35,673 nucleotides of DNA from Opitutus sp. GAS368 (GTDB taxonomy: Bacteria > Verrucomicrobiota > Verrucomicrobiia > Opitutales > Opitutaceae), in contig CAMBVX010000024.1 in assembly GCA_945871085.1 (NCBI GenBank), positions 1 through 35,673 on the forward strand. The letters are read 5' to 3'. Position 1 is the first letter of the stretch. Every line of letters starts with the position of its first letter. Of this stretch, positions 521-35,673 are shown piece by piece. The position numbers and the translations under genes were made by a program. A model generated the notes under the pieces. The model was not told the DNA's origin. It saw only the letters and a list, made by a program, of their open reading frames with translations, and searched no databases.

Positions 521-1623
521 TGGGAGACCTTTTTCAATTCGACGAAGGGCGGTTTGACCAGATGCAAATTCAACTTCGTTCCTCGAATGTCCACGACGAG
601 CGCTGCGGTCGCGGCGGCCACCGTCACCAAGGCGGAGCCGATGGACTCGTTGAGGAGCGGTGACAGCGTGCCCGAAAGCACCCGACCGACGATCTCTCCA
701 TTCGCTGCGAGCACCGGCGTTTCCGCCCGCACGATCCGCCGGTCGCCCGTCTTGAAGAAAACCACTTTATTCACCGCCCCGTTTTTCTTTTCGGCGACCA
801 GCACGTCACGACCGATGAAGTCCGCGCCTTTTTCCAACTTCACGGTCCAACCCAACCCGGCGGTCAGCGGTGAAATGTTCTGCGTGATTTCGTGACCGTA
901 GAGCGGATAACCCGCCTCCAGGCGAAGGCTGTCGCGGGCACCGAGACCGGCCAGCTCGAGACCTCGCGGCGCGCCGGCCGCCAACACCGCCTCGGCGAGT
1001 GCGACGGCATCGCCGGCCGCATGATAAAGTTCGAACCCATCTTCACCCGTGTAGCCGGTCCGACTGATCAAACAATGCATGCCAGCGACCGTGCCCTCCG
1101 TGAAATGGTAATATTTCACGAGCCCGAGTTTCGCCCCGGTGAGCGATTGGACGATCTCGGCCGCGCGCGGACCCTGCACCGCGAGCAACGCGTAGTCGGC
1201 GCAGCGATCCGTGATCGTGACGGAAAACTTCCCTGCTTGCTCGCGAATCCAAGCGAGATCCTTCGCCACGTTGCCGGCATTGATGCAGAGAAAATAATCG
1301 TCCGCCCCGCGCATGTAGACGAGCAGGTCGTCCACGACGCCGCCGTTCGGATAACACATCGGCGAGTACAACACGCGGCCCGGATAGAGTTTCGCGACAT
1401 CATTGGTCACGAGATAATTCAGGAATTTCTCCGCCTCCGGCCCACGCACGTCGACCTCGCCCATGTGACTCACATCGAAGAGGCCGGCCGCGCGGCGCAC
1501 CGCCTTGTGCTCCTCGAGAATACTCCGGTATTGGACGGGCATTTCCCAGCCCGCGAAATCGACCAAGCGCGCGCCGTGGGCGGCATGAAAATCACGCAGT
1601 GGCGTGCGTTGGAGTTCACTCAT
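517..1623 (-). CDS. gcvT: Aminomethyltransferase (glycine cleavage T protein)
   Basis: GcvT transfers the one-carbon unit from the H-protein-bound aminomethyl group to tetrahydrofolate and releases ammonia. The 368-residue protein starts MSELQRTPL and shows hallmark segments: FHAAHGARLVDFAGWEMPVQ near the N-terminus, FDVSHMGEVDVRGP, then SRTGYTGEDGFELY and GARDSLRLEAGYPLYGHE, which form the folate-binding core. An upstream extension is open to position 1719, but it is rich in Arg and Pro and unlike any GcvT, so I chose the ATG at 1623. No Shine-Dalgarno motif precedes it. The 107-bp gap to the divergent lgt gene must hold both promoters. It is short, and I see no folded glycine riboswitch in it. 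Confidence 0.96.
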   Translation of the reverse strand: MSELQRTPLRDFHAAHGARLVDFAGWEMPVQYRSILEEHKAVRRAAGLFDVSHMGEVDVRGPEAEKFLNYLVTNDVAKLYPGRVLYSPMCYPNGGVVDDLLVYMRGADDYFLCINAGNVAKDLAWIREQAGKFSVTITDRCADYALLAVQGPRAAEIVQSLTGAKLGLVKYYHFTEGTVAGMHCLISRTGYTGEDGFELYHAAGDAVALAEAVLAAGAPRGLELAGLGARDSLRLEAGYPLYGHEITQNISPLTAGLGWTVKLEKGADFIGRDVLVAEKKNGAVNKVVFFKTGDRRIVRAETPVLAANGEIVGRVLSGTLSPLLNESIGSALVTVAAATAALVVDIRGTKLNLHLVKPPFVELKKVSQ

Positions 1624-1730
1624 TCGCCGAACTACGCGCGGCGCGCACCGGCGCGGCAAGATTCTTTTCGGCCGCCGCCGCGACGTGCCGAATATATTCG
1701 CCACGCACGGTCGCTGCATAAACTGCCGTC

Positions 1731-2555
1731 ATGCCGCTCACCTACTGGGTTCACGATCTTAGCCCGTTTCTGGTCCGATTCTCTGATAGCTTCGGCATTC
1801 GCTACTATGGGCTGGCCTACGTGCTCGGGTTCGTCGGAGCCGTGGGGTTGCTCCATCGTTACCACCGCGCGGGTCGATCCCCCTTTGGCGGCAACGCCAT
1901 TGGTGACCTCATCACCTACATCGTGTTTGGCGTGATGCTCGGGGGGCGGCTCGGTTATTTTCTGCTCTATCAGTCCGAGGCTTTCGTCCGCGATCCCCTC
2001 GCTTTGCTCCGGGTATGGGAGGGAGGTATGGCGAGCCACGGTGGCTTCGTCGGAGTCTTGTTCGCCCTGATCTTGTTTGCGCGCCGGCACCACGTCTCGT
2101 TTTTCCCTGTGAGTGATCTGATTGCGACCACGACTGCACTGGGACTTTTTTTTGGCCGCATCGCCAACTTTATCAACGGCGAACTCTACGGCAAAATCAC
2201 TGATGTGCCGTGGGCGGTCGTCTTCCCCCAGAGCGCGGCGGCCGGGACGCCTGTTCACCTCATCTTGCCGCGTCACCCGTCCCAACTCTACGAGGCCGTC
2301 TTGGAAGGCGCGGTGCTCTTCGCCTTGGCGCAATGGCGTTTTTGGCGCAGCGACGTGTCGCGCACTCACCCCGGACGACTCAGCGGCGAGTTTCTGCTCG
2401 CCTACGCGCTGGTGCGCATGCTCGGCGAAGCGTTCCGCGAACCTGACGCCTCGCTCATTTTGGGCGTCAGTCGCGGCACGTTTTATTCGATCTTTCTGAT
2501 CGCCGGCGGGCTCGTGTTGGTCTTCCGCCGGCCCGTTCAGCAACCGCGGCCTTAG
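1731..2555 (+). CDS. lgt: Prolipoprotein diacylglyceryl transferase
   Basis: Lgt is an inner-membrane enzyme that moves diacylglycerol from phosphatidylglycerol onto the lipobox cysteine of prolipoproteins. The 274-residue protein has about seven hydrophobic segments. It carries the HGG motif (GGMASHGGFVG, His103) and the Lgt signature FFGRIANFINGELYG, with Arg143 and Asn146 at the same numbers as the essential residues known in E. coli Lgt. RHPSQLYEA follows later. The gene is divergent from gcvT and convergent with glgC; the two stop codons overlap by 4 bp (2552-2555). Its substrates probably include the PelC-like lipoprotein encoded at 11682-12218 (inference). Confidence 0.97.
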   Translation: MPLTYWVHDLSPFLVRFSDSFGIRYYGLAYVLGFVGAVGLLHRYHRAGRSPFGGNAIGDLITYIVFGVMLGGRLGYFLLYQSEAFVRDPLALLRVWEGGMASHGGFVGVLFALILFARRHHVSFFPVSDLIATTTALGLFFGRIANFINGELYGKITDVPWAVVFPQSAAAGTPVHLILPRHPSQLYEAVLEGAVLFALAQWRFWRSDVSRTHPGRLSGEFLLAYALVRMLGEAFREPDASLILGVSRGTFYSIFLIAGGLVLVFRRPVQQPRP

Positions 2556-3841
2556 ACCGTGGTCCCCGGCGGTAGCGTCGCGCCCTTCGGCACCACGAGG
2601 ACTCCGTCGCGAATGACCACCGCGCCGTTCAGATAGGTTCCGTCGACCTTGCCCGTCGCGATCAGGACGCAACCGGCCCCGATGCGCGCGTTCTTGTCCA
2701 CGATCGCACCTTTGATCACGCAGTTCGCTCCGATGCCGATGCGCGGACGCCCGAGCGCCGTATTTTCCTTCAACTGCGCCGGCGTCTCATAGTAGTCCGC
2801 GCCCATCACCACGGCATCTTCGAGCGACGAGCCTTCACCGATGAAACTCCGCACGCCGAGCACGCAGTGGTGCAACGATGAGTCCGTGATGATCGAGCCG
2901 TCGCCGATGACCACGTGGTCGATGGCGCACTTGTTGAGCTTCGCGGCGGGCAGGTAACGATCCTGCGTGTAAATCGGCTCGCTCGCATCGAAGAAATCAA
3001 AAGGCGGCAGCGGTTGTGCCAGCGCCAAGTTCGCGTCGAAAAACGCGCGCACAGTGCCGATGTCCTCCCAGTAGCCCTCGAAAATATGGGCAAAAAGTTT
3101 TTTCTGCCCGAGCAGTCCCGGGATGATCTCCTTGCCGAAATCCGTCTGCGGGCCGGCGAGCGCGTCCGCCAAAACCGACCGGTTGAAAACGTAGATGCCC
3201 ATCGACGCCAGACAGCGCTTTTCCGTGGACGGCGTCTCCAATTCAGACTCCAGCGCCGCGCTGAGCGTGAGGCTTTGGATGACGGCGGGGTCTTTGGGTT
3301 TCTCGACGAAACGCTCGATCGAATGGTCATCCTTGACCTGCATCAGACCGAGACCAGCCACCTTCGAAACCGGAAACGGAATCGCCGCCACGGTCACGTC
3401 TGCCTTCGTCGCGATGTGCTGCTCGACGATCTTGCGGTAGTCCATCCGGTAGAGTTGATCGCCCGAAAGGATCAGCACGAGATCGTGCGGGAACGCGCGG
3501 AAGTGGACGAGGTTGCGCCGCACTGCGTCCGCAGTTCCCTGATACCAATCGGCGCTCTTCTCGGTCTGCTCCGCCGACAGAATGTCCACGAAGCCGCCGC
3601 CGAACGGATCGAAATGATAGGTGTTCTGCACGTGGCGGTGCAGCGACGCCGTCTGGAACTGCGACAGGATAAAAATCCGGTTGATGTCGGAGTTAATGCA
3701 GTTGCTGATCGGAATATCGACGAGGCGATACTTGCCCGCGAGAGGCACCGCCGGTTTGCAACGTTCAAGGGTCAGCGGGGAGAGGCGGGTGCCGCGGCCT
3801 CCGCCCATGATCACGGCCAGCACACGTTTTTGGGTTGTCAT
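2552..3841 (-). CDS. glgC: Glucose-1-phosphate adenylyltransferase (ADP-glucose pyrophosphorylase)
   Basis: GlgC makes ADP-glucose from glucose-1-phosphate and ATP, the committed step of bacterial glycogen synthesis. The 429 residues match the family length. The N-terminal nucleotidyltransferase domain has GGGRGTRLSPLT (13-24), KPAVPLAGKYRLVDIPISN, GTADAVRRN, LSGDQLYRMDY and FVEKPKDP. The C-terminal third is a left-handed beta-helix with hexapeptide-like repeats (VIGDGSIITDSS, IGIGANCVIKGA), where allosteric effectors act in known enzymes. The start is the ATG at 3841; no Shine-Dalgarno precedes it. It is divergent from the Pel operon across only 86 bp, so the two promoters are close together. 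A debranching-type GH13 enzyme at 30687-33161 belongs to the same glucan metabolism. Confidence 0.96.
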   Translation of the reverse strand: MTTQKRVLAVIMGGGRGTRLSPLTLERCKPAVPLAGKYRLVDIPISNCINSDINRIFILSQFQTASLHRHVQNTYHFDPFGGGFVDILSAEQTEKSADWYQGTADAVRRNLVHFRAFPHDLVLILSGDQLYRMDYRKIVEQHIATKADVTVAAIPFPVSKVAGLGLMQVKDDHSIERFVEKPKDPAVIQSLTLSAALESELETPSTEKRCLASMGIYVFNRSVLADALAGPQTDFGKEIIPGLLGQKKLFAHIFEGYWEDIGTVRAFFDANLALAQPLPPFDFFDASEPIYTQDRYLPAAKLNKCAIDHVVIGDGSIITDSSLHHCVLGVRSFIGEGSSLEDAVVMGADYYETPAQLKENTALGRPRIGIGANCVIKGAIVDKNARIGAGCVLIATGKVDGTYLNGAVVIRDGVLVVPKGATLPPGTTV

Positions 3842-3927
3842 GAAAATTTCTAAATGGGTTTGGGAACCACCCTACCTTTGCCCCTGCCGGAGTTGACGCC
3901 AGCATTTTTTAGGAAAGTCTCCGTCCT

Positions 3928-4863
3928 ATGGCTCATGTTCTCGTAACCGGGGCTGCCGGCTTCATCGGCAGCCACACTGTGGACCGTCTCCTGGCCGCTG
4001 ACCACACCGTCACGGGGCTCGACAATTTCCGCACCGGCCGGCGCGCTAATCTCGCGGCGGCCCTCGCCTCGCCGCACTTCGCCTTCCACGAACTCGACGT
4101 CGCCGCCCCGGGCGCCCTCGCCACCCTCGTCGGCACCGTCCGACCGGACGCCATCATCCACCTCGCCGCCCTTGTCAGTGTCCAAGAAAGCATGACGAAT
4201 CCGGACCTGAACTACTCGCTTAACATCCACGCCACGCATCTCGTCGCCGAGGCCGCGCGCCTGCACGCCGTGCGCCGCCTCGTCTTCGCCTCCTCCGCGG
4301 CGATTTACGGCGACGCCACGGATTTTCCGATTCGGGAGTCGACCGAAAAGAAACCCATCAGTCCCTACGGCTCGGCCAAGCTCGCCTCCGAAGCCATACT
4401 GCTCGGCCACGGCGCCGCCTTCGGTCTCACCGTCCGCTGCCAACGTTACTTCAATGTCTTCGGCCCGCGCCAAGACCCCGCCTCCCCCTACTCCGGCGTC
4501 ATTTCGATTTTCGACCGCCGCTACCGCGAGGGCCAAGGCGTTACGATTTACGGTGAGGGCCAACAGACTCGCGACTTCATCTCCGTCCACGATGTCGCCC
4601 GCGCCAATGTCCTCGCGGCCACCGCGCCCGGCGTGTCCTCCGGCGTCGCCAATATCTGCACCGGTCGCGCGACGTCGCTGCTCGACGTTGTCGGCGTGTT
4701 TGCCCGCCACTTTCCGGCGGCGCCCGCCGTCATCCACGGCACCCCGCGCACCGGCGACATCATTCACTCGCTCGGCGCGCCGGAACACGCCGCCGCCGCT
4801 CTCGGTTTTCGCGCCGAGGTCTCCGTCGATACCGGACTCGGCGAATTGATCCACGCGGGATGA
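3928..4863 (+). CDS. UDP-GlcNAc/UDP-Glc 4-epimerase family protein (PelX/WbpP type)
   Basis: This is an extended short-chain dehydrogenase/reductase of 311 residues. It has the NAD-binding GAAGFIG motif at 8-14, the catalytic Ser pair at 122-123 and YxxxK at Tyr147/Lys151. The segment YFNVFGPRQDP followed by SPYSGVI resembles the WbpP/GNE subgroup, which interconverts UDP-GlcNAc and UDP-GalNAc, more than classical GalE. It is the first gene of the Pel operon and overlaps pelA by 4 bp. Pel contains GalNAc and GlcN/GlcNAc, and some Pseudomonas pel loci carry a UDP-GlcNAc 4-epimerase called PelX, so supplying UDP-GalNAc for PelF is the likely role (inference). A weak AGGAAAG lies 10 nt before the ATG. 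Substrate choice between acetylated and plain hexoses cannot be proven from sequence alone. Confidence 0.85.
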   Translation: MAHVLVTGAAGFIGSHTVDRLLAADHTVTGLDNFRTGRRANLAAALASPHFAFHELDVAAPGALATLVGTVRPDAIIHLAALVSVQESMTNPDLNYSLNIHATHLVAEAARLHAVRRLVFASSAAIYGDATDFPIRESTEKKPISPYGSAKLASEAILLGHGAAFGLTVRCQRYFNVFGPRQDPASPYSGVISIFDRRYREGQGVTIYGEGQQTRDFISVHDVARANVLAATAPGVSSGVANICTGRATSLLDVVGVFARHFPAAPAVIHGTPRTGDIIHSLGAPEHAAAALGFRAEVSVDTGLGELIHAG

Positions 4864-6362
4864 GCCGGCCCGCCATGCGTTCCGCGATCGCGATGATTTT
4901 CGCCCTCGCGGGCAGCGCTTTTTTTTACCCTCTGGTCCACGCCGCGACCGCCCCCGCCGCTCCGCCGATGCAGACGGAACCGCTCGCGTTCTACGTCAAC
5001 TACGCGGCCCGCGTTCCGACCGCCCCACTCGTCGCGCACGCGCTGTCCATCGTGCACCCCGACGCCACCGTCGACCTCGCCGCCGCCCATCGCGTCGGCA
5101 ATACCGTCCTCGCTTATCTCAGCGTCGGCGAAGTCGCCCCTGACGCCCCCTATCGCGCCGAAGTTCTCTCCCGCCGCCTCCCGTTTGTCGGCCGCAACGC
5201 CACGTGGAACTCCGATCTCGCCGATCTCACCGACCCGCGTTGGGCCGATTTTTTCGTCACGCATCTCGCCCCGGCCATCGTCGCGCGCGGCTTCGACGGC
5301 TTCTTCCTCGACACCCTCGACGCCATCGAACTCGCCGCGTCCGCCGTCGACCCAGCATCCGCTCCTGCACCCAACCCCGCGCGCCTCGCCGCCCTCCGCG
5401 CGGGCCTCGTCTCACTCGTGCGGCGGCTCCACGCCGCGTTTCCCACCCAGCGCATCATCATCAATCGCGGCTTCCCGTCCTTCGACGAACTCCGCGACTC
5501 CATCGACGGCGTCCTCGTCGAATCACTTTTCGAGTCGCACGACTTCGTCACCAAAACCTCCCGCGCGGTCCCTCCCGCCGACTCGGCCGCCCTGCTCGTC
5601 CAGCTCCACCGCATCGCCGCCGCCGGTCGGCAGGTCTACGTCCTCGACTATACTGATCCCACGGACGCACCGCGCGCCACCGCCGCGGCCGACCGGATTC
5701 GGGCGCTCGGCTTTCACGCCTTCGTCTCGACGCCCACGCTCGACGGTGCGCTGCTCGCCCCGCTCCGTCCCGTCCCGCGCCGCATCTGTTCGTTTTACGG
5801 CAACCTCACCACCGTGCAGGAAGATCAGGTCACATGGCCCGCCGAATCGTTCACCGCGCAACGTCTCCAAGTCCCGCTCGAGTGGCTCGGCTACGAGGTC
5901 GACTACTTCAGAATCCTCTCCGCCTCCGACCTCCCCACCCTCGGTGCCGATTACCGCGCGATCATCCTCCCACGCGCGTGGGAAATCGCACCGCCCTCGA
6001 ACCACAAGTCATCGACTGGCTCATTGCTCAACGCGACATCGGTCGGAAAATTCTGCTCTTCGGCGGTCTGCCCTTTCGCGATCCTGACCAACGCAAACGT
6101 TTCCTCGCCGCCTTCGGGCTCGGCGGCACCGGTGCATTTACCGCCCCGCCGTTCACCGCCGAAATCGTCACGAAAGATCCCGGCCTGCTCGACTACGAGG
6201 CGCCCGTCGCCGCGCTGCCCGTTGGCCATCGCGACCTCCGCGCTCCGGCCGGCGCCCGCCGCCTCCTCCGTGTGCGCGCCACGCTCAAAGACGCCCCGCC
6301 CGTCGACTTCGACGCCGCGTTCACCTGCGCTTGGGGCGGCCTGGCCTGCGATCCGTATCTAG
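4860..6362 (+). CDS. pelA: PelA-like protein, N-terminal part (GH114-type hydrolase), frameshifted
   Basis: PelA is the periplasmic hydrolase/deacetylase of Pel biosynthesis. This part has a Sec signal peptide (about 1-29, ending VHAA). A GH114-like alpha-1,4-polygalactosaminidase domain follows, with YLSVGE (Glu91), WNSDLADLTDPRW, GFDGFFLDTLDA and DGVLVESLFES, all acidic motifs of that fold. A second Rossmann-like domain starts near residue 305. The reading is sound to about residue 377. The remaining residues up to the stop at 6362 are out of frame, because the natural continuation lies in the -1 frame. Restoring one base near 5991-5997 gives one protein of about 979 residues, close to P. 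aeruginosa PelA (about 950). The ATG overlaps the epimerase stop codon. Either a real frameshift mutation or an assembly error explains it. Confidence 0.85.
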   Translation: MSRPAMRSAIAMIFALAGSAFFYPLVHAATAPAAPPMQTEPLAFYVNYAARVPTAPLVAHALSIVHPDATVDLAAAHRVGNTVLAYLSVGEVAPDAPYRAEVLSRRLPFVGRNATWNSDLADLTDPRWADFFVTHLAPAIVARGFDGFFLDTLDAIELAASAVDPASAPAPNPARLAALRAGLVSLVRRLHAAFPTQRIIINRGFPSFDELRDSIDGVLVESLFESHDFVTKTSRAVPPADSAALLVQLHRIAAAGRQVYVLDYTDPTDAPRATAAADRIRALGFHAFVSTPTLDGALLAPLRPVPRRICSFYGNLTTVQEDQVTWPAESFTAQRLQVPLEWLGYEVDYFRILSASDLPTLGADYRAIILPRAWEIAPPSNHKSSTGSLLNATSVGKFCSSAVCPFAILTNANVSSPPSGSAAPVHLPPRRSPPKSSRKIPACSTTRRPSPRCPLAIATSALRPAPAASSVCAPRSKTPRPSTSTPRSPALGAAWPAIRI

Positions 6363-7798
6363 TTTTCCGCCGCGCCGATTTCCGCGACTTCTGGCACCTC
6401 GACCCGTTCGCGTTCCTGTCCCTCGCGCTCGGCGATCTCGCCGCGCCGGTGCCCGACACCACCACACGAGATGGCCTGCGGCTTTTTCTCAGCCACATCG
6501 ATGGCGATGGATTTTCCAACTACTCCCGCGTCGCCGCTGGCCAGCGCTCCGCCGAAATTATTCGCGACCGTATCCTGAAAAAATATCCGCTCCCCGTCAC
6601 CGTTTCCATCATCGAGGCCGAGCTCCGCGCCCTCCTCCGCACGCAACGCGCCGCCGAGTCCCCCCGCCTCGAAGCCATCGCGCGCGAAATTTTCGCCCTG
6701 CCCCAAGTCGAAGCCGCCTCCCACTCCTTCTCCCATCCATTTTTCTGGATCGAGGGCGACCGCACCGAATCCTTCTACGACGTCCAAAATCTCGATCTGA
6801 AAACGCCCTACGCGAAGCTCGACCTCGCCCGCGAGATCGCCAGCTCCGTGCGCTACATTAACGAGCAACTCGCTCCTCCTGACCGCCCCGTGCGCGTATT
6901 TCTGTGGACCGGCAACTGCCGCCCACCCCCTGCCGCCCTCGCGCTCACGCGCCGCCTCGGCCTCGAAAACGTCAACGGCGGCGATACACTCATCACCGCC
7001 CGCTACCGGACGCTGACCGCCGTCGCTCCGCGCACCATGCCCTGGGGCGATGAACTTCAGATCTACGCCCCAAACCAAAACGAAAACGTCTACACCAACA
7101 ACTGGCGCGGCCCCCTCTTCGGCACCTTCACTCACGTCCTCGACACCTACGCGCTCACCGAAACACCGCGCCGCCTCAAGCCCGTCAACCTCTACTATCA
7201 TTTTTATAGCGGGGACTACGCCGCCTCGCTCCAAGCCCTCGAAACCGTTTGCGACTGGGCGTTGGATCAACCGCTGCATGCCCTCCCGCTTTCGGGCTAC
7301 GCGCGCCTCGCCCGCGACGCTCGCGGCACCGCGATCTTCTCCTCCGGCCCGGACCGCTGGCTCATCGTCAACCAAGGCGATTCCCGCACCCTCCGGCTTC
7401 CCGCCGCCCTCGCCGCCCGCCTCGACCTCCGTCGCTCCACCGGTATGACCGGCTGGCAAACCACCCGGGACCAGACCTACGTCCACACCGACGGCTCCCC
7501 CGCCGTCACCCTGGCCCTCGCGCCGGCCGGCACCACGCCCGCCCCCACTCCGCGCCTCGTCAGCTCCTCCGCCGAAATTACGTTCCGCTCCCGCCACCCC
7601 ACCGCGTGGGACTTTGCCGTGCACGACCTCCGCCGGGTCGTCGTCGTCGTCGCCGGACTCGCCCCCGCCTCGCCGGTCCGCGCCGCCATCAATCGCACCG
7701 CGCAGACCCTCCACGCCGCCGCCGACGGCACGCTGACGCTCACGCTTCCGCCCCAAGCCGACGTCACCCTCGACTTCGCCGGACCGCCCGCGCCATGA
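5834..7798 (+). CDS. pelA: PelA-like protein, C-terminal part (polysaccharide deacetylase), frameshifted
   Basis: The open frame begins with an ATG at 5834, but genuine PelA sequence starts only near 5996; the first 50 or so residues are a shadow of the other frame. In this frame's numbering the deacetylase core shows SHIDGDGF with Asp223 and Asp225, and SHSFSHP with His297 and His301. This Asp-x-Asp and His-x3-His set has a spacing like the metal and catalytic residues reported for P. aeruginosa PelA. The C-terminus (about 570-654) is beta-rich, consistent with the jelly-roll-like final domain of PelA. PelA deacetylates the polymer in the periplasm and also hydrolyses it. The stop overlaps the start of the next gene by 4 bp (7795-7798). 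If the frameshift is real, this half lacks a signal peptide and would not be exported. Confidence 0.85.
   Translation: MARRIVHRATSPSPARVARLRGRLLQNPLRLRPPHPRCRLPRDHPPTRVGNRTALEPQVIDWLIAQRDIGRKILLFGGLPFRDPDQRKRFLAAFGLGGTGAFTAPPFTAEIVTKDPGLLDYEAPVAALPVGHRDLRAPAGARRLLRVRATLKDAPPVDFDAAFTCAWGGLACDPYLVFRRADFRDFWHLDPFAFLSLALGDLAAPVPDTTTRDGLRLFLSHIDGDGFSNYSRVAAGQRSAEIIRDRILKKYPLPVTVSIIEAELRALLRTQRAAESPRLEAIAREIFALPQVEAASHSFSHPFFWIEGDRTESFYDVQNLDLKTPYAKLDLAREIASSVRYINEQLAPPDRPVRVFLWTGNCRPPPAALALTRRLGLENVNGGDTLITARYRTLTAVAPRTMPWGDELQIYAPNQNENVYTNNWRGPLFGTFTHVLDTYALTETPRRLKPVNLYYHFYSGDYAASLQALETVCDWALDQPLHALPLSGYARLARDARGTAIFSSGPDRWLIVNQGDSRTLRLPAALAARLDLRRSTGMTGWQTTRDQTYVHTDGSPAVTLALAPAGTTPAPTPRLVSSSAEITFRSRHPTAWDFAVHDLRRVVVVVAGLAPASPVRAAINRTAQTLHAAADGTLTLTLPPQADVTLDFAGPPAP
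5991..5997 (+). other. Apparent one-base deletion inside pelA
   Basis: Up to about 5990 the protein-like reading is in the frame of 4860 (…RAWEIAP). From about 5996 it continues in the -1 frame (ALEPQVIDWLIAQ…). Inserting a single G or C in the short run CCGCCC joins the two into an uninterrupted PelA. No heptameric slippery sequence with a following pseudoknot is visible, so programmed frameshifting is unlikely. Confidence 0.75.
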
Positions 7799-30134: not shown

Positions 30135-30686
30135 GGGGAAGCCGCGGAACGTGCGACATCACTTTCGCGATGTCACCTCGAAAGTCCGCCTCGCCCGAAA
30201 GTGGCGCAGACCTGCGGCCGGCCCCACCGACTGAGTCAAACGATGCAATCGAGTGCCTTGGCCGGCGCGCTCCGGGTTCAGCACATCTCACCACTAACTG
30301 TGGCGGCTGACTGCGTGTGATTCGCGGCAAGACTTCGGGGTTTCATCCACGACCGTTGCAGCGAAGACCGCGAATTGATGATGAGAAAACCGGCTGGCGG
30401 TCCGTCAGGTCGATGCCATGCGTTGATTCACCTTCGGACTCCCTGCGGGTCTCCCTCTGAAGACGCGTGCGCGGAATTCGTTTCAAAAATCTTCGATTTT
30501 GTCCACGCCGGGCAGCCCGGGGAACACACTGAGCAGCGTCATCGAGAAGTCTTCAGCACGAGCCACTCCAGCGCCGCTCACCTTTTGGAATAAACCAACC
30601 CGCGAAGCCCGCCCACGCCAAGTGCCGTGAGTCTCACCCGAGGGTGTGAGGCGCGGTCCAAACGCGGATCGCTCCTCGGCTCACCC
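30135..30686. other. 552-bp intergenic region without a supported gene
   Basis: The region separates two minus-strand genes and must hold the promoter of the membrane/SAM-fold pair. Short inverted repeats are visible: CCGGGC-A-GCCCGG near 30509, AAAATC-TTC-GATTTT near 30488, and an imperfect CTCACCC/GGGTGTGAG near 30630. None has a T-tract. Open frames here lack recognisable domains, good codon bias or start context. Confidence 0.4.
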
Positions 30687-33161
30687 TCACTCGTCGCTCC
30701 GCCACAGCGCACAACCGAGCGCCGGCACGAACAAATCCGGCTCGACCGGCAGCGTCGCCCCATGTCCTTCCGAAGCAAAAAACCGTTCGTGGTCGGCCAA
30801 CTGCTCCCACGCGCCCGCCACCGCGCCCGCGATGCCTTCGCCCACGTGAATCGTCACGTCACCCAACGAGGGGTTAACCGCAAACAACAGCCGCTCTGCG
30901 CCCTGCGAAAAGTCCGCGTTATAAATGACCGCAAACGCGGGCGATCCGGACGCACGGAAAAACAGGAAAAAGCCCTCGCTCGGCCGCGCGCCTTGGCGCA
31001 ACAACCGCCCCGTCTCGCTGCGGCGAAACGCGATCCAGTCGGCGAAATACGCGTGCGTGCCGAGATGCCGATAGAGCCGGCGGTAATCGAGCGCGTTCAG
31101 ATCACCCCGCAGGTAGGTGTTGTTCACCCCGTGCTTGGAGCGGAGGAAATCCTGCCCCGCCGCCAACATCGGAATGCCCAGCGACATGAACAACAGCGCG
31201 GCCATCAGGTGGGTCCGCTGGCGATCATTGGCCGTCGGCATGAAGCCGTTGGAGTTGCCGTTTTCCGTGATCATGTCGATCCACGTGCGGTCATCGTGCG
31301 ACTCCGTGTAGTTCACCGTCTGCGCCGGCCACTTGGCAAAATACCACGGCGAGCCCCGCAAAAAATATTCCATGCGTTCCGCCGCCCCGCCGCCCCGCAC
31401 ATAGTCGCGCACGAAATCCCGGTAACCGTCGTTCCACGACGCCCAACCCGTGTCGCGCAAAGCCCCCGCGATGTGCCCGCGGAAACTCCACGGCTCCGCA
31501 ATCAAGATCACGTCGGGCTTCACGCGCTTCAGCGCCACCTCGACATCGCGCAACACATCCGCGCCGATCAGCTCCGCGAGGTCGAAACGAAATCCGTCGA
31601 CGCCAAACGCCTCGATCAGGTGAATACAGCTGTCGATGATGAGTCGTTTCGACATCGCGGAACGCGCCCGCAAGTCGTTCCCGCAACCGCTGAAATTGGC
31701 GAGATTCCCCGCCGCGTCCTGTTCAAAATAATAGAGCCGGTCGATCAACATCAGGTGCGCCGGCACGCCGACGTGGTTGTAAACCACATCGAGGAGGACC
31801 GCCATGCCGCGCCGGTGAAACGCGGCGACCAATTCCTGCAACTCCCGCACGCCCGACGCGGCCTCCGGCACCAGCGCGTAGCCGCTCTCCGGCGCGAAAA
31901 AATTATTTGTCATGTACCCCCAGTGGTAGTCGGCCGCCGCCACGTTGTCGCACGCCTGCACCGGCTGCAGTTCCACACAGTTCACCCCGAGATGGTGCAG
32001 GTAAAAATCTGAACTCTCGACCCACTTGCGCACGCCCGTGAACCCGCGGCGCTCCTCGGGCAGCGCCTGCACCGGGGCGTTCGCCGCGAGATCCCGCACG
32101 TGCGCCTCGGCGATGATCAGGTCGTGCCACGCCGGGGTCTTGAAGGTCCGGTCGCCCTGGCCCACCCACGCGCGATCGAGCACAATGCCCGGTCCATCGT
32201 GCTGGACCGTCGCCAGCGCATAGGGATCGAGCACGCGCATCTGCGGATCAAATTTCCCCGGCCCGGCGCGCACGCCATCCACCGCATACCAATAAAACCA
32301 GCCGTGCAGATTACTCCCGAGCGCCACTTCCCAGACGCCGGCCGAGCCGTCGGCATCCGGCCGCCGCACCAACGGAAATTCTTGGACTTCGCTCAGCTCG
32401 CCCAGTGCGTGGCGCAGCGACAGCGTCACCCCCCGCGCCCTCGGCGCAAACAGCCGGAACACCGTCTCCTCCCCCCGCACCAACGCCCCAAGCGGCAGAT
32501 CGGTTTTCAAGTCGTGAAAGAAGACCCCCGGCACCAGCGGCACTCCGTCCTCTGCCGTCGCCTCGCTCCTCCCGGCCCACGCCACGGTCAGGGCCTCCGC
32601 GAGATCGAGCGGCTGCGCCAACGAAAATCGCCAGAGGTGCCGACCCGTGCGAGCCGGGTCGATCACGCGGTTCACATTGCCGTCCCGATCGCGCACGCCG
32701 TTGGGTACGTCGTCCGGCAAACTCAGCCAATGATGTTCACCAGTCACGAACTTGAACCGCTGGCCCGCCGGCTTCAGAAAACGCGCCGCGTCGCCCCGCC
32801 ACATCAACACTTGCTCGCCATCCAATTTCTCCGGTCGCAACCGCCACGCCTCATTGCCGACCGCCGCCTGCCAGCCATTAAATTCTCCCGCCACATATAA
32901 GGTGTCCCGCGCCAGATCGATCTCGGAGCCGTGCTCCGGCGTGAGCGCAAACACCATCTCCCCCGCCGCATTGACGAAATAACGGTAACTGCAGGCGGCC
33001 ATCAAACCCGTGTCCACCGAAAGTCCCGCCGGGGTCGGACACTGCGCCCCCAGCGTAAAATGCGGAGGCACCTTCGATCTCCAGTCGCGGTCCAACTCCA
33101 CCACACCCGTGGTGAGGGATTCGAGCCAAGCCCGGACGATACGATGCGACGGTTCTACCAT
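30687..33161 (-). CDS. GH13 pullulanase-type glycogen/alpha-glucan debranching enzyme
   Basis: The 824-residue protein has N-terminal beta-sandwich modules, including CBM48-like segments (LYVAGEFNGWQ, and ETVFRLFAPRARGVTLSLRH). A GH13 barrel carries the four conserved regions: DVVYNHVG (I), DGFRFDLAEL with the nucleophile Asp (II), LIAEPW with the acid Glu (III) and YTESHDDRTW (IV). YHWGYMTNNFF is the YNWGY-like motif of type I pullulanases and isoamylase relatives. These enzymes hydrolyse alpha-1,6 branches. No signal peptide is seen at the chosen ATG (33161), so the enzyme is probably cytoplasmic and works on glycogen together with glgC products. The open frame extends to 33314, but that part is Arg/Gly-rich and not family-like. 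A second choice would be a maltodextrin debranching GlgX-type enzyme. Confidence 0.85.
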   Translation of the reverse strand: MVEPSHRIVRAWLESLTTGVVELDRDWRSKVPPHFTLGAQCPTPAGLSVDTGLMAACSYRYFVNAAGEMVFALTPEHGSEIDLARDTLYVAGEFNGWQAAVGNEAWRLRPEKLDGEQVLMWRGDAARFLKPAGQRFKFVTGEHHWLSLPDDVPNGVRDRDGNVNRVIDPARTGRHLWRFSLAQPLDLAEALTVAWAGRSEATAEDGVPLVPGVFFHDLKTDLPLGALVRGEETVFRLFAPRARGVTLSLRHALGELSEVQEFPLVRRPDADGSAGVWEVALGSNLHGWFYWYAVDGVRAGPGKFDPQMRVLDPYALATVQHDGPGIVLDRAWVGQGDRTFKTPAWHDLIIAEAHVRDLAANAPVQALPEERRGFTGVRKWVESSDFYLHHLGVNCVELQPVQACDNVAAADYHWGYMTNNFFAPESGYALVPEAASGVRELQELVAAFHRRGMAVLLDVVYNHVGVPAHLMLIDRLYYFEQDAAGNLANFSGCGNDLRARSAMSKRLIIDSCIHLIEAFGVDGFRFDLAELIGADVLRDVEVALKRVKPDVILIAEPWSFRGHIAGALRDTGWASWNDGYRDFVRDYVRGGGAAERMEYFLRGSPWYFAKWPAQTVNYTESHDDRTWIDMITENGNSNGFMPTANDRQRTHLMAALLFMSLGIPMLAAGQDFLRSKHGVNNTYLRGDLNALDYRRLYRHLGTHAYFADWIAFRRSETGRLLRQGARPSEGFFLFFRASGSPAFAVIYNADFSQGAERLLFAVNPSLGDVTIHVGEGIAGAVAGAWEQLADHERFFASEGHGATLPVEPDLFVPALGCALWRSDE

Positions 33162-33533
33162 GTGAAATGCAAAGCATTCGCCGCACCGTCCGCGCGACAA
33201 GCGGGAAACAGCCGAGGGAAAATAATCGCCCCCCCAGCCTCCGCGCATGATTTGCCGGGCTCCGCCTTTTGTCGCTCCTCTCCTCCCTCGCGAATCCCGT
33301 TTCATCCGCTTCACCGCGCCGCTGCGTTACTTCGCAGCCGTGTTTCTCCCGTGTAGCCCAGAGTCCTTCCTCCGCGTTCCCTCACCAGCCCCGATTTTCC
33401 CGGCGTGACGAATCCGTGACGGGCGATTTCCCGGCGTGACATTCTCTCTCCCGCACCCTCCGTTCACGTCTATCGCATCTTAGCCGTCCGTCGCACCCGT
33501 CTCGTCGTCGCCGCAGCCTCGTCCCTTTTTTTC
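33162..33533. other. Divergent intergenic region between debranching enzyme and nuclease genes
   Basis: These 372 bp hold the promoters for both neighbours. Apart from the direct repeats at 33396-33440 and a pyrimidine-rich leader just before the nuclease start (33480-33533), I see no gene, tRNA or terminator. Confidence 0.4.
33396..33440. repeat. Two 14-bp direct repeats, possible operator
   Basis: TTTCCCGGCGTGAC occurs at 33396-33409 and again at 33427-33440, 31 bp apart (about three helical turns), each preceded by GAT or GATT. A partial copy (CCGTGACGGG) sits between. Same-face spacing in a divergent promoter region suggests tandem binding sites for a regulator of the nuclease and/or debranching enzyme (inference). 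Confidence 0.4.
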
Positions 33534-34481
33534 GTGAAAATCCACTCCTCCGCCCTCGCCCTTGTCGCCCTGTTCCTGTCCGCCGTCACCGCCTTTGCCA
33601 CGATCAACCCGGCGCTGCAAATGTTGACCGGCAACCCGAGCGCCGCCGCCACCGATCCCGTGGTCAACCGCACGAACTTCCTCATCCAGCGCGCCCAATA
33701 CGCCTTCGGTTACAACGACACCACGCGCGAGCCCAACTGGGTCGCCTGGAATCTCACCTCCGGGGACGTCGGCACCAGCGGTCGCTCCCCCGATTTTTTC
33801 CAAGACACCAACCTCCCCGCCGGCTTCTACCAAGTCCTGCCGACGGACTACAGCGGCTCCGGTTATGATCGCGGCCACCTCTGCCCTTCCGGTGACCGCA
33901 CGGTCAGCCGCGCCGACAACGACGTCGTGTTTTTCATGTCGAACATGATGCCTCAAGCTCCCGACAATAACCAAGGCGTGTGGGCCAGCTTCGAGACCTA
34001 CTGTCGCACGCTCGCCGACGCCGGTAGCGAAGTCCTCATCATCGCCGGCCCCGGTGGCTTTGCCGGTTCGACCATCGCGAGCGGCGTTTCCATCCCCGGA
34101 TTCACCTGGAAGATCGCCGTCGTCGTCCCCCTCGGCGCCGGCACCGCGCTAAGCCGCATCACGGCCACCACCCGCGTCATCGCCATCAAGATCCCCAACA
34201 CCGCCGGCGTCCGCAGCAACCCGTGGCAACAATACGTCACCTCCACCACGCAACTCCAGACCGACACCGGCTACACATTTTTCACCGACCCCGCCCTCGC
34301 CGGAGTCGCCGCCGCCCTCCGCGCGCAAGTTGACGGGCAGACCGCCACCGGCGCTCCCACCCTCACCACGCAGCCTTCGGCCCAAACTTCCGCCGTCGCC
34401 GGCAGCGCCAGTTTTTCCGTGACCGCCACCTCGAACCCCGCCTCCACCGCCATCTTTCCCTTATCAAGAACCTCTTGGTAA
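33534..34481 (+). CDS. Secreted DNA/RNA non-specific endonuclease, C-terminally truncated
   Basis: This is a 315-residue protein from a GTG start. A signal peptide (about 1-22, ending AFA) is followed by a beta-beta-alpha-metal nuclease domain (about 40-250). Its DRGHLCPSGDR motif contains the catalytic His115 and SNMMPQAPDNNQGVW contains the metal ligand Asn146, as in Serratia-type nucleases. After residue 275 an Ig-like repeat begins (TLTTQPSAQTSAVAGSASFSV). It is cut off at about residue 304 and replaced by unrelated residues up to a TAA inside a hairpin. The missing tail probably held the remaining Ig-like module(s) and perhaps a surface or sorting signal. The cut coincides with the left edge of a recombinase-carrying element, so insertion is the likely cause. 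The catalytic domain is complete and may still be active. Confidence 0.85.
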   Translation: MKIHSSALALVALFLSAVTAFATINPALQMLTGNPSAAATDPVVNRTNFLIQRAQYAFGYNDTTREPNWVAWNLTSGDVGTSGRSPDFFQDTNLPAGFYQVLPTDYSGSGYDRGHLCPSGDRTVSRADNDVVFFMSNMMPQAPDNNQGVWASFETYCRTLADAGSEVLIIAGPGGFAGSTIASGVSIPGFTWKIAVVVPLGAGTALSRITATTRVIAIKIPNTAGVRSNPWQQYVTSTTQLQTDTGYTFFTDPALAGVAAALRAQVDGQTATGAPTLTTQPSAQTSAVAGSASFSVTATSNPASTAIFPLSRTSW

Positions 34482-34495
34482 GGGATTAATTTTTT
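34458..34495 (+). terminator. Hairpin with T-tract at the element/nuclease junction
   Basis: CCCTTATCAAGA-ACC-TCTTGGTAAGGG forms a 12-bp stem (one T:G wobble) with a 3-nt loop, followed by ATTAATTTTTT. This is a good Rho-independent terminator shape. It contains the nuclease stop codon. The same dyad could instead be part of the recombinase attachment site. Confidence 0.5.
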
Positions 34496-34640
34496 GCAGA
34501 TACCTGCGCGGGAGCGAGAAGCAAAACGGGCGATTTAACGCCTTCGAAATAAGTTCTTGTTGTGCTGGTCCGGCGAAAGGCCAAACCGCCTCCAAAAACG
34601 AGGCTGTCCACGGTGCCGTTAAATTTCGGTGCGTGAGTTT

Positions 34641-34670
34641 TCCGCAGAATCTGCGATAATGTCCGCAGAT
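34641..34670. promoter_or_regulatory. Operator-like repeats before the recombinase gene
   Basis: TCCGCAGA occurs at 34641-34648 and 34662-34669, 21 bp apart (two helical turns). The first copy forms a palindrome CGCAGA-A-TCTGCG (34643-34655). A GATAAT hexamer between the copies could be a -10 element. The arrangement suggests a repressor site controlling the recombinase, 65-95 bp before its start. Confidence 0.4.
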
Positions 34671-34735
34671 CAGAAACACCTCGGGGTAGAGGCCTTGTTG
34701 GGACTCCCCCGGTCAACCTTAACCAAGGAATTTTC

Positions 34736-35673
34736 ATGCCTGCGATTCCCTCGAATTCTTCGCGTCCCCGTGCCTGCACGGTGCCCGTGGCCATCTACTC
34801 CCGCGTCTCCACCGCCAACCAGGTCGGAGGGCGCTTCGACTCCTGCGAAAGCCAAGCCGCCGTCTGTCGCGACTACATCGCGAAACACGCCAGCGACGGC
34901 TGGTTTGAAATCGCCTGCTTCTCCGACCCGGCCTACTCGGGCGGTTCGATGAACCGGCCCGGCGTCCGCGCGCTCATGCGCCAAATCGAAGCCGGCGAAA
35001 TCAAGATCGTCCTGATCTTCAAACTCGAACGCGTGCTGCGCAGCACGGACGAATGGGGACCGTTTCGATCCTTTCTGCAGCAACACGGCTGCCGGCTGGT
35101 CAGTCCCACCGAGGACCTCTCCGACGAAACTCCGTCCGGTCGCCTGAAAAACAACCTCATGATGAGCGTAGCGGAATACGAGCGGCTGAACACCGCCGAA
35201 AAAATCCGCATCAAACTCAACGAGCAAGCGAAGCGCGGCTTTTGGACGGGCGGGCAGGTCCCCTTCGGCTACGTCTACGATGAAACCCTCCAAGGCCTCA
35301 GCCCACATCCGACCGAAGCGGCCACCTTGCGTCGCATCTTCGAATTGGCCGCGAGTCTCACCTCGCTCACCGAGATCGCAAACACGCTCAACACCGACGG
35401 CCTTCGGACTCGCGCACGCATTTTCAACCGCCGTAGCGGCGCCAAACAGAACGTCGGCGAAAAGCGTTTCCGCTCCGACATCGTGCGCCGGCTGATCACA
35501 CGTCCGCTCTACGCCGGCCGGGTGCGCATGAACGGCAAGGAATTTCCCGGCCAGCACGCGGCCCTCGTATCGGATGACCTGTGGGAGCGCGCGAATGCCG
35601 CGATTCGGCCGGCGGCGTTGCCAGCGCCACGGCGATTCCGAGACCGCGACAAACACTTTCATCTGCTCAAGGC
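34736..35673 (+). CDS. Large serine recombinase (resolvase/recombinase family), partial at window end
   Basis: The reading starts at the ATG at 34736, with AAGGAA six nt upstream, and stays open for 312 codons to the window edge. The N-terminal resolvase domain has VAIYSRVSTANQ with the nucleophile Ser25 preceded by Arg23, CESQAAVCRDYI, FSDPAYSGGSMNRPG, LIFKLERVLRS and the MMSVAEYERLNTAEKIR helix. The recombinase domain begins near residue 165 with RGFWTGGQVPFGYVYD, and IVRRLITRPLYAGRVRMNGKEFPGQH is visible. The zinc-ribbon and C-terminal coiled-coil parts lie beyond the window. Such enzymes integrate and excise phages and mobile islands at short attachment sites. Its position right after the disrupted nuclease gene supports it as this element's integrase. 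Confidence 0.92.
   Translation, partial: MPAIPSNSSRPRACTVPVAIYSRVSTANQVGGRFDSCESQAAVCRDYIAKHASDGWFEIACFSDPAYSGGSMNRPGVRALMRQIEAGEIKIVLIFKLERVLRSTDEWGPFRSFLQQHGCRLVSPTEDLSDETPSGRLKNNLMMSVAEYERLNTAEKIRIKLNEQAKRGFWTGGQVPFGYVYDETLQGLSPHPTEAATLRRIFELAASLTSLTEIANTLNTDGLRTRARIFNRRSGAKQNVGEKRFRSDIVRRLITRPLYAGRVRMNGKEFPGQHAALVSDDLWERANAAIRPAALPAPRRFRDRDKHFHLLK

Follow-up and report, generated by a model that had tools for sequence, protein, structure and literature searches.

A Nuclease Gene Interrupted by an Integrative Element

The stretch of DNA analysed here (the window) comprises contig C24 in full, 35,673 nucleotides, from the draft genome of Opitutus sp. GAS368 (7.37 Mb in 630 contigs). Near its right end the gene of a secreted nuclease with Ig-like domains runs into the left end of an integrative element that carries a large serine recombinase (LSR), as a preliminary description of the sequence had proposed. 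Two genomes of the same genus, G004 and G001, hold the gene intact, and contig C15 of the draft holds a sister copy of the element. The features of the locus, all on the forward strand, are the following.

33534-34448, +, native 5' part of the nuclease gene, 305 codons, with the Endonuclease_NS domain (PF01223) and the start of an Ig-like domain; 88-89% DNA identity to G004 and G001
34428-34448, +, putative attB half-site within the nuclease gene resembling a tRNA-Ser 3' end (ACCTCGAACCCCGCCTCCACC), with TCGAA in the T-loop register
34447-34448, +, crossover dinucleotide CC, common to attL (window), attR (C4, 1025-1026) and the G004 empty site
34449-35673, +, left end of the integrative element, starting with GCCA; 90% identity over 1245 bp to the C15 copy and 91.8% over 1226 bp to the G001 copy
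34457-34485, +, terminator-like hairpin of the element with a 13-bp stem and the loop ACC, followed by a T-tract (from folding and pair counts over 14 copies)
34468-34471, +, GAAC motif of the element arm, at +16 after the CCA position, an inverted copy of the T-loop GTTC
34736-35671, +, LSR, truncated by the contig end to its N-terminal 312 aa; 97% identity to the complete C15 copy of 703 aa

The truncated open reading frame (33534-34481) starts with GTG and encodes 315 aa. Its nuclease domain, which had been described as complete, gives a near-complete match to the DNA/RNA non-specific endonuclease family PF01223 at residues 48-252 (profile 16-219 of 223, E 2e-45). The orthologues in G004 and G001 are 91% and 90% identical in protein sequence, and their open frames span 2099 and 2101 codons; in the intact G004 protein the nuclease domain is followed C-terminally by Ig-like domains (Ig_3, seven stretches). 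DNA identity to them stops at 34448 (G004) or 34447 (G001), so that the break falls after codon 305, within an Ig-like domain (Ig_3 at 276-348 of the G004 protein), in agreement with the earlier placement at about residue 304. Both orthologues extend 1777 codons beyond the break point, neither ends at the same residue and neither contains an element. Read from the DNA, the truncated nuclease consists of 305 native residues followed by ten element-encoded ones, and it is presumably produced. A promoter scan of 33400-35673 found none, no tRNA gene was found within the window, and an Rfam scan at the junction gave only two matches, both far below gathering scores.

The displaced Ig-like C-terminus and the second copy of the junction core, which the preliminary description had expected beyond the element, were both located on contig C4, where positions 1027-7392, open for 2121 codons, are joined to the right end of the element directly behind a CC at 1025-1026. 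The empty site of G004 reads ...CCTCCACC followed by CTCACG, the left junction in the window ...CCTCCACC followed by GCCATC (34448/34449), and the right junction on C4 ...CCTCCTCC followed by CTCACG. At the left junction CC is preceded by A (native) and followed by G (element); at the right one it is preceded by T (element) and followed by C (native). Since the flanking bases differ between both junctions, the overlap is exactly CC, as expected of a serine integrase, and this exact 2-bp overlap at both junctions and the empty site is, at the level of sequence, the signature of a serine-integrase crossover.

Window positions 30643-34448 and C4 each match contig C151 of G004. An assembly chimera joining nuclease and element might be suspected in a 630-contig draft in which several contigs begin or end inside LSR copies; however, the two junctions lie on two contigs, carry different element ends and are complementary to the base at one empty site, which leaves a chimera extremely improbable. 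The known cargo of the window's island, on C4 to the left of the displaced part, consists of a gene for a TacA-like antitoxin and a frame for a GNAT acetyltransferase that is interrupted by a single in-frame stop.

The Recombinase

The window copy of the LSR has the Resolvase and Recombinase domains above cut-offs and ends before the zinc ribbon. The full C15 copy matches PF00239, PF07508 and PF13408 (Resolvase, Recombinase, zinc beta ribbon), all above cut-offs, which is the domain composition of an LSR. Residues Y21, R23, V24, S25 and T26 are invariant in 15 and in 27 aligned copies; this Y-x-R-V-S-T stretch we take to be the conserved catalytic region. The integrase family phrog_95 matches residues 10-533 (E 5.8e-92). 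Among phage homologues, 701 records match, none of them at 60% identity or above, and the 20 listed show 22-30%. The fold prediction (pTM 0.41) places long, coiled-coil-like helices after the zinc ribbon. Residues 610-702 (numbering of the C15 copy, model of L210) form a C-terminal domain predicted to be helical, with a block pLDDT mostly above 80, and this domain has a weak likeness to ParB-HTH (PF17762, E 0.0016, below its cut-off). To our knowledge, a ParB-HTH-like C-terminal tail is unusual for a serine integrase.

Relatives of the Element at tRNA Genes

The full 703-aa C15 copy was used as the query against 189 relatives, 55 of which gave a match at E 0.001. A first set of 45 loci comprised 40 matching loci and five from the window's own genome, with tRNAs called by ARAGORN; a second set of 61 named loci overlaps with the first (106 loci in sum). 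Related loci in the GTDB collection are mostly from Opitutaceae or Opitutae. In the first set a same-strand tRNA ends 264-507 bp before the LSR match at 24 loci, an opposite-strand tRNA lies within 5 kb after it at four, and neither is present at 17, the window copy included; the corresponding counts in the second set are 34, 6 and 21. The 61 loci contain 46 tRNAs in 905 kb in total, and 40 of these are the ones adjoining the LSR. Once identical junctions were removed, 40 distinct same-strand junctions (Ser 23, Pro 10, Arg 4, and Tyr, Glu and Asn) and eight opposite-strand ones (Gln, Asn) remained, and the CCA end is encoded in all 48 tRNAs. At seven loci (L100, L103, L106, L110, L242, L248 and L253) the tRNA (Asn, Gln) is on the opposite strand and the element is reversed; the distance of opposite-strand tRNAs is mostly 250-400 bp after the LSR match, and 3.6 kb in L110. 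At L092 (G060, contig C53) the left flank, ...CCACCCCGACCA, resembles the right end of another Pro-type element, as in a tandem. Geminisphaera colitermitum TAV2 is one named strain that carries Pro-type copies.

The closest copy found to the window element, in G001, follows tRNA-Ser(GGA), and the sister copy on C15 (90.1% DNA identity) directly follows tRNA-Ser(TGA). At such usual sites the element supplies GCCA, the four nucleotides that restore the tRNA-Ser 3' end, as in islands of the Islander type; this restoration is shown for the Ser type and presumably holds for the other isotypes. G080 has tRNA-Ser(TGA) with no island behind it and shares the upstream flank with G047, at 89% identity up to a point 3 bp beyond the tRNA; the tRNA is therefore the target and not cargo.

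These relatives bear on the proposal in the preliminary description that the element may have chosen the nuclease gene as its attachment site and brought a clean 3' end. In favour of this, the truncated frame reaches its stop within a hairpin that precedes a T-tract, ten codons past the junction. Nevertheless, close relatives with nearly the same left end and hairpin sit at tRNA-Ser genes, the intact nuclease genes of G004 and G001 are free of the element, and among the 106 overlapping LSR loci searched this nuclease is occupied only in the window's own. We consider a regular site in the nuclease gene highly improbable: the junction had been seen correctly, and the reason for the site is a different one.

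The only island with both ends clear is in G047, a complete one of 20.7 kb at tRNA-Ser(TGA) (L088, contig C1, 2677-23408, continued in L184). Its right end is homologous and GCCA is repeated there. It carries the LSR, HipA (Pfam), BrxA, BrxC, PglX, PglZ and BrxL (PADLOC models) and two TIR-like proteins. On C15, too, HipA is encoded close to the LSR, and a weak right-end candidate was seen in Geminisphaera (L093, +49.5 kb).

A comparison with distant LSRs (27-39% identity) was rejected as a negative control, because four of their ten loci were themselves near tRNAs; L073 and L116 are one place, which makes it four of nine distinct places. The four (L068-L071), from the same family and order, lie at most about 330 bp from a tRNA gene.

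Geometry of the Attachment Sites and Recombinase Phylogeny

For the measurements below the core was placed at tRNA positions -6 and -5, directly for the Ser type and by assumption for the other types; the same crossover place probably applies to these as well. The T-loop motif GTTCG/A lies 13 nt before the core in 48/48 junctions, a spacing fixed by tRNA architecture. On the element side, GAAC was found at +16/+17 from the tRNA CCA in 42/48 junctions vs 0-4/48 in 30 control windows, a count that is not one of 48 independent trials, the junctions being related to each other. Measured from the core, NGAAC starts after 18 nt in 34 junctions and after 19 nt in eight. In the right arm, (G)TTCG lies 19 nt before CC in five right ends of the window's own genome and one in G047, with CTCG in C527. 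The motif is thus 13 nt from the crossover on the tRNA side and 18-19 nt on the element side, a shift of 5-6 bp. In the A118-type (LI) integrase the zinc-ribbon motif is reported to sit closer to the centre in attB than in attP, by 5 bp (PMC3783163). Because the offset is of the same kind, the zinc ribbon of the LSR presumably reads the T-loop, by analogy with the published system.

Target isotype follows the LSR phylogeny, as judged from the sequences. On a quickly built tree of 47 LSRs whose target is known, the seven isotypes require seven changes, where the least possible is six and the mean after shuffling is 23.4 (0/200 shuffles as good). All 22 Ser-type rows are on one side of a branch with support 92, regardless of anticodon. 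Rows of the Asn and Gln types are mixed with each other. For Ser and Arg, a more careful tree with 35 rows gave a consistent result. One Ser-type member (L227) is on a 1.4-Mb contig of a Magnetospirillum metagenome-assembled genome, which suggests either movement from one phylum to another or a mistake in binning or naming.

The tRNA genes could also be near for a reason that has nothing to do with the LSR, as general hotspots behind which islands accumulate, for example through tyrosine integrases; tRNA genes are described as common island sites (PMC4383910). But the fixed position of the element-arm motif in 42/48 distinct junctions and the dependence of isotype on the LSR tree speak against this, and we regard it as most unlikely.

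The Nuclease Site as a Probable Mimic of tRNA-Ser

The half-site in the nuclease gene matches tRNA-Ser(TGA) in 15/21 positions and the GGA and GCT tRNAs in 13/21, through the Ig-like codons TCG AAC CCC GCC TCC ACC. We propose, with a probability of roughly 0.9, that the window copy is an off-target insertion by a tRNA-targeting LSR island that used a pseudo-attB in the nuclease gene. In this reading tRNA genes are the usual targets of the family, with insertion six bases short of their 3' end. The tRNA half of the target offers the T-loop GTTCG 13 nt from the crossover and the island arms the same motif inverted at 18-19 nt; the island brings the last four tRNA bases (GCCA for tRNA-Ser) and so restores the tRNA. 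In the window, the LSR would have taken the tRNA-Ser-like Ig-like codons as a pseudo-attB, and the island would have entered the gene by one 2-bp (CC) crossover, leaving a nuclease cut at residue 305 with ten element residues and the remaining gene stranded beyond the island. The island may still be able to excise.

A transposon-like LSR of low specificity, with the tRNA likeness due to chance, would be another account, and low-specificity insertion is reported for Tn4451 and its relatives (PMC5704250). The window has roughly one CC site scoring at least 15/21 in every 9 kb, and two other junctions of the genome, the right end on C527 and the left end on C242, are away from tRNA genes. Yet only 4/6202 CC positions score that high, which gives a random CC insertion a chance of about 0.0006, and an adjacent tRNA is found in 28/45 and 40/61 family loci. 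Such an account is, in our view, very unlikely.

Several points weigh against an off-target insertion by a tRNA-targeting island. The mimic is not rare, since the four sites of the 35.7-kb window with 15/21 or more include its own, and two of the four score at least 17/21; mimicry explains where the element could land, and gene choice is not predicted by mimicry alone. The right half of the nuclease site is without a motif at the expected place, GAAC is absent at +14 to +18 in 6/48 junctions, and the crossover place is shown directly for the Ser type only. No adjacent tRNA was found in 17/45 and 21/61 loci, although the upstream sequence was too short in two and eight of these (the eight: <340 bp). 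The middle of the window's island is unassembled, so that the link between C24 and C4 consists of the junctions and synteny. A right end was sought in 14 tRNA-linked copies, several of which were scanned over short stretches, and was clear in one (G047). The downstream flank of G080 is unmatched to that of G047 within the 1.5 kb compared, and the LSR tree contains near-duplicate rows, where one contig is represented in both of two collections.

Other junctions of the genome lie outside tRNA genes. At the C527 right end (L180, about 3582, minus strand) CTCC is followed by non-tRNA sequence, GGCGCAAGG, with no GCCA, and this is probably another off-target insertion. At the C242 left end (L018/L181) an Arg-type element follows GGGGCGCACCA, with no tRNA, beside a tyrosine-recombinase-like fragment; it could be a tandem end. 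On C239 (L006, 9390-9239, minus strand) a right end is fused to a left end in an attP-like arrangement with no LSR match behind it, which may represent a tandem, a decayed copy or a circle.

We also considered that the zinc ribbon of this family recognises the T-loop GTTCGA in one half of attB and that the other half, outside the tRNA, counts for little. The LSR would then be a retargetable one-and-a-half-site integrase, always anchored at the T-loop; its isotype (Ser, Pro, Arg, Glu, Asn, Gln or Tyr, by clade) would be determined by the acceptor stem, and a relaxed reading of the second half would permit off-target landings such as the one in the nuclease gene. To this model we would give even odds.

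The Hairpin at the Left End

The hairpin at 34457-34485 has a perfect 13-bp stem and a 3-nt loop and is followed by TTAATTTTTT. The region 34450-34510 folds with -23.2 kcal/mol (z -6.0, 0/200 shuffles as good). Terminator-like sites number three in the scanned region vs 2.5 in shuffles, which makes the pattern weak when taken by itself. Across 14 copies pairing holds in 93.4% of cells; three pairs change on both sides, which 49/500 shuffles reach, and the covariation score is 0.181 (0/500 shuffles; slid controls at most 0.085). The G001 copy after tRNA-Ser(GGA) has nearly the same hairpin, and that of C15 is weakened. Folding is strong in the majority of Ser-type copies from the home genus and its near relatives, as well as in two Arg-type copies (C195 and L095) and, by eye, in C242. 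A family-wide hairpin was rejected, the fold being weak or missing outside the Ser-type copies and Arg-type C195 and L095 among the folds listed. From these comparisons the hairpin is an element feature of the Ser clade. Its simplest role would be that of a terminator behind the restored tRNA; as the GAAC motif sits in the hairpin, it may also be a recombinase-binding dyad.

The stop of the truncated nuclease (TAA, 34479-34481) is in the 3' arm of this element-derived hairpin, as first described. The further suggestion that it keeps the nuclease expressed finds no support, because the same hairpin follows tRNA genes at the usual sites; its stop in the nuclease is accidental.

Comparison with Known Systems

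Serine integrases are common tools for inserting DNA into genomes, and it is difficult to foresee which targets they will choose. A family that reaches different isotypes with one motif at one spacing is a natural series on the specificity of the zinc ribbon vs that of the recombinase domain. The window adds an off-target event whose empty site, attL and attR can all be read in one genus. Our searches of open-licence literature (bioRxiv excluded) showed no multi-isotype serine-recombinase family with such a half-site geometry, nor one at Verrucomicrobiota tRNA genes, which is weak evidence of absence.

With the phage serine integrases (A118/LI integrase, phiC31, Bxb1 and TP901-1) the family shares the Resolvase, Recombinase and zinc-ribbon domains, the 2-bp crossover, the long, coiled-coil-like helices predicted after the zinc ribbon, and a motif whose distance from the core is about 5 bp greater in attP than in attB. 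It differs from them in that one attB half only carries the motif and in the extra C-terminal helical domain. BREX defence islands are resembled by the G047 copy only, which carries BrxA, BrxC, PglX, PglZ and BrxL, whereas the known cargo of the window copy is the TacA-like gene and the interrupted GNAT frame.

Islands of the Islander type, driven by tyrosine integrases, are similar in that island DNA restores the tRNA end, and the G047 island lies between the tRNA and a short repeat of the tRNA end. In contrast to them, the recombinase here is a serine recombinase, only the 2-bp core and GCCA are repeated exactly instead of a long tRNA fragment, and the window copy itself is outside any tRNA gene. 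Serine recombinases at tRNA genes are called rare in a 2011 survey, which names the Ralstonia phage phiRSM1, at the 3' end of tRNA-Ser, and eight AICEs of Mycobacterium, at tRNA-Leu (PMC3218068). As described there, these each use one isotype, whereas the LSR family uses seven. The targeting of tRNA genes by a serine recombinase therefore has precedent; the apparent use of a conserved tRNA feature as a half-site is unusual for this class of enzymes.
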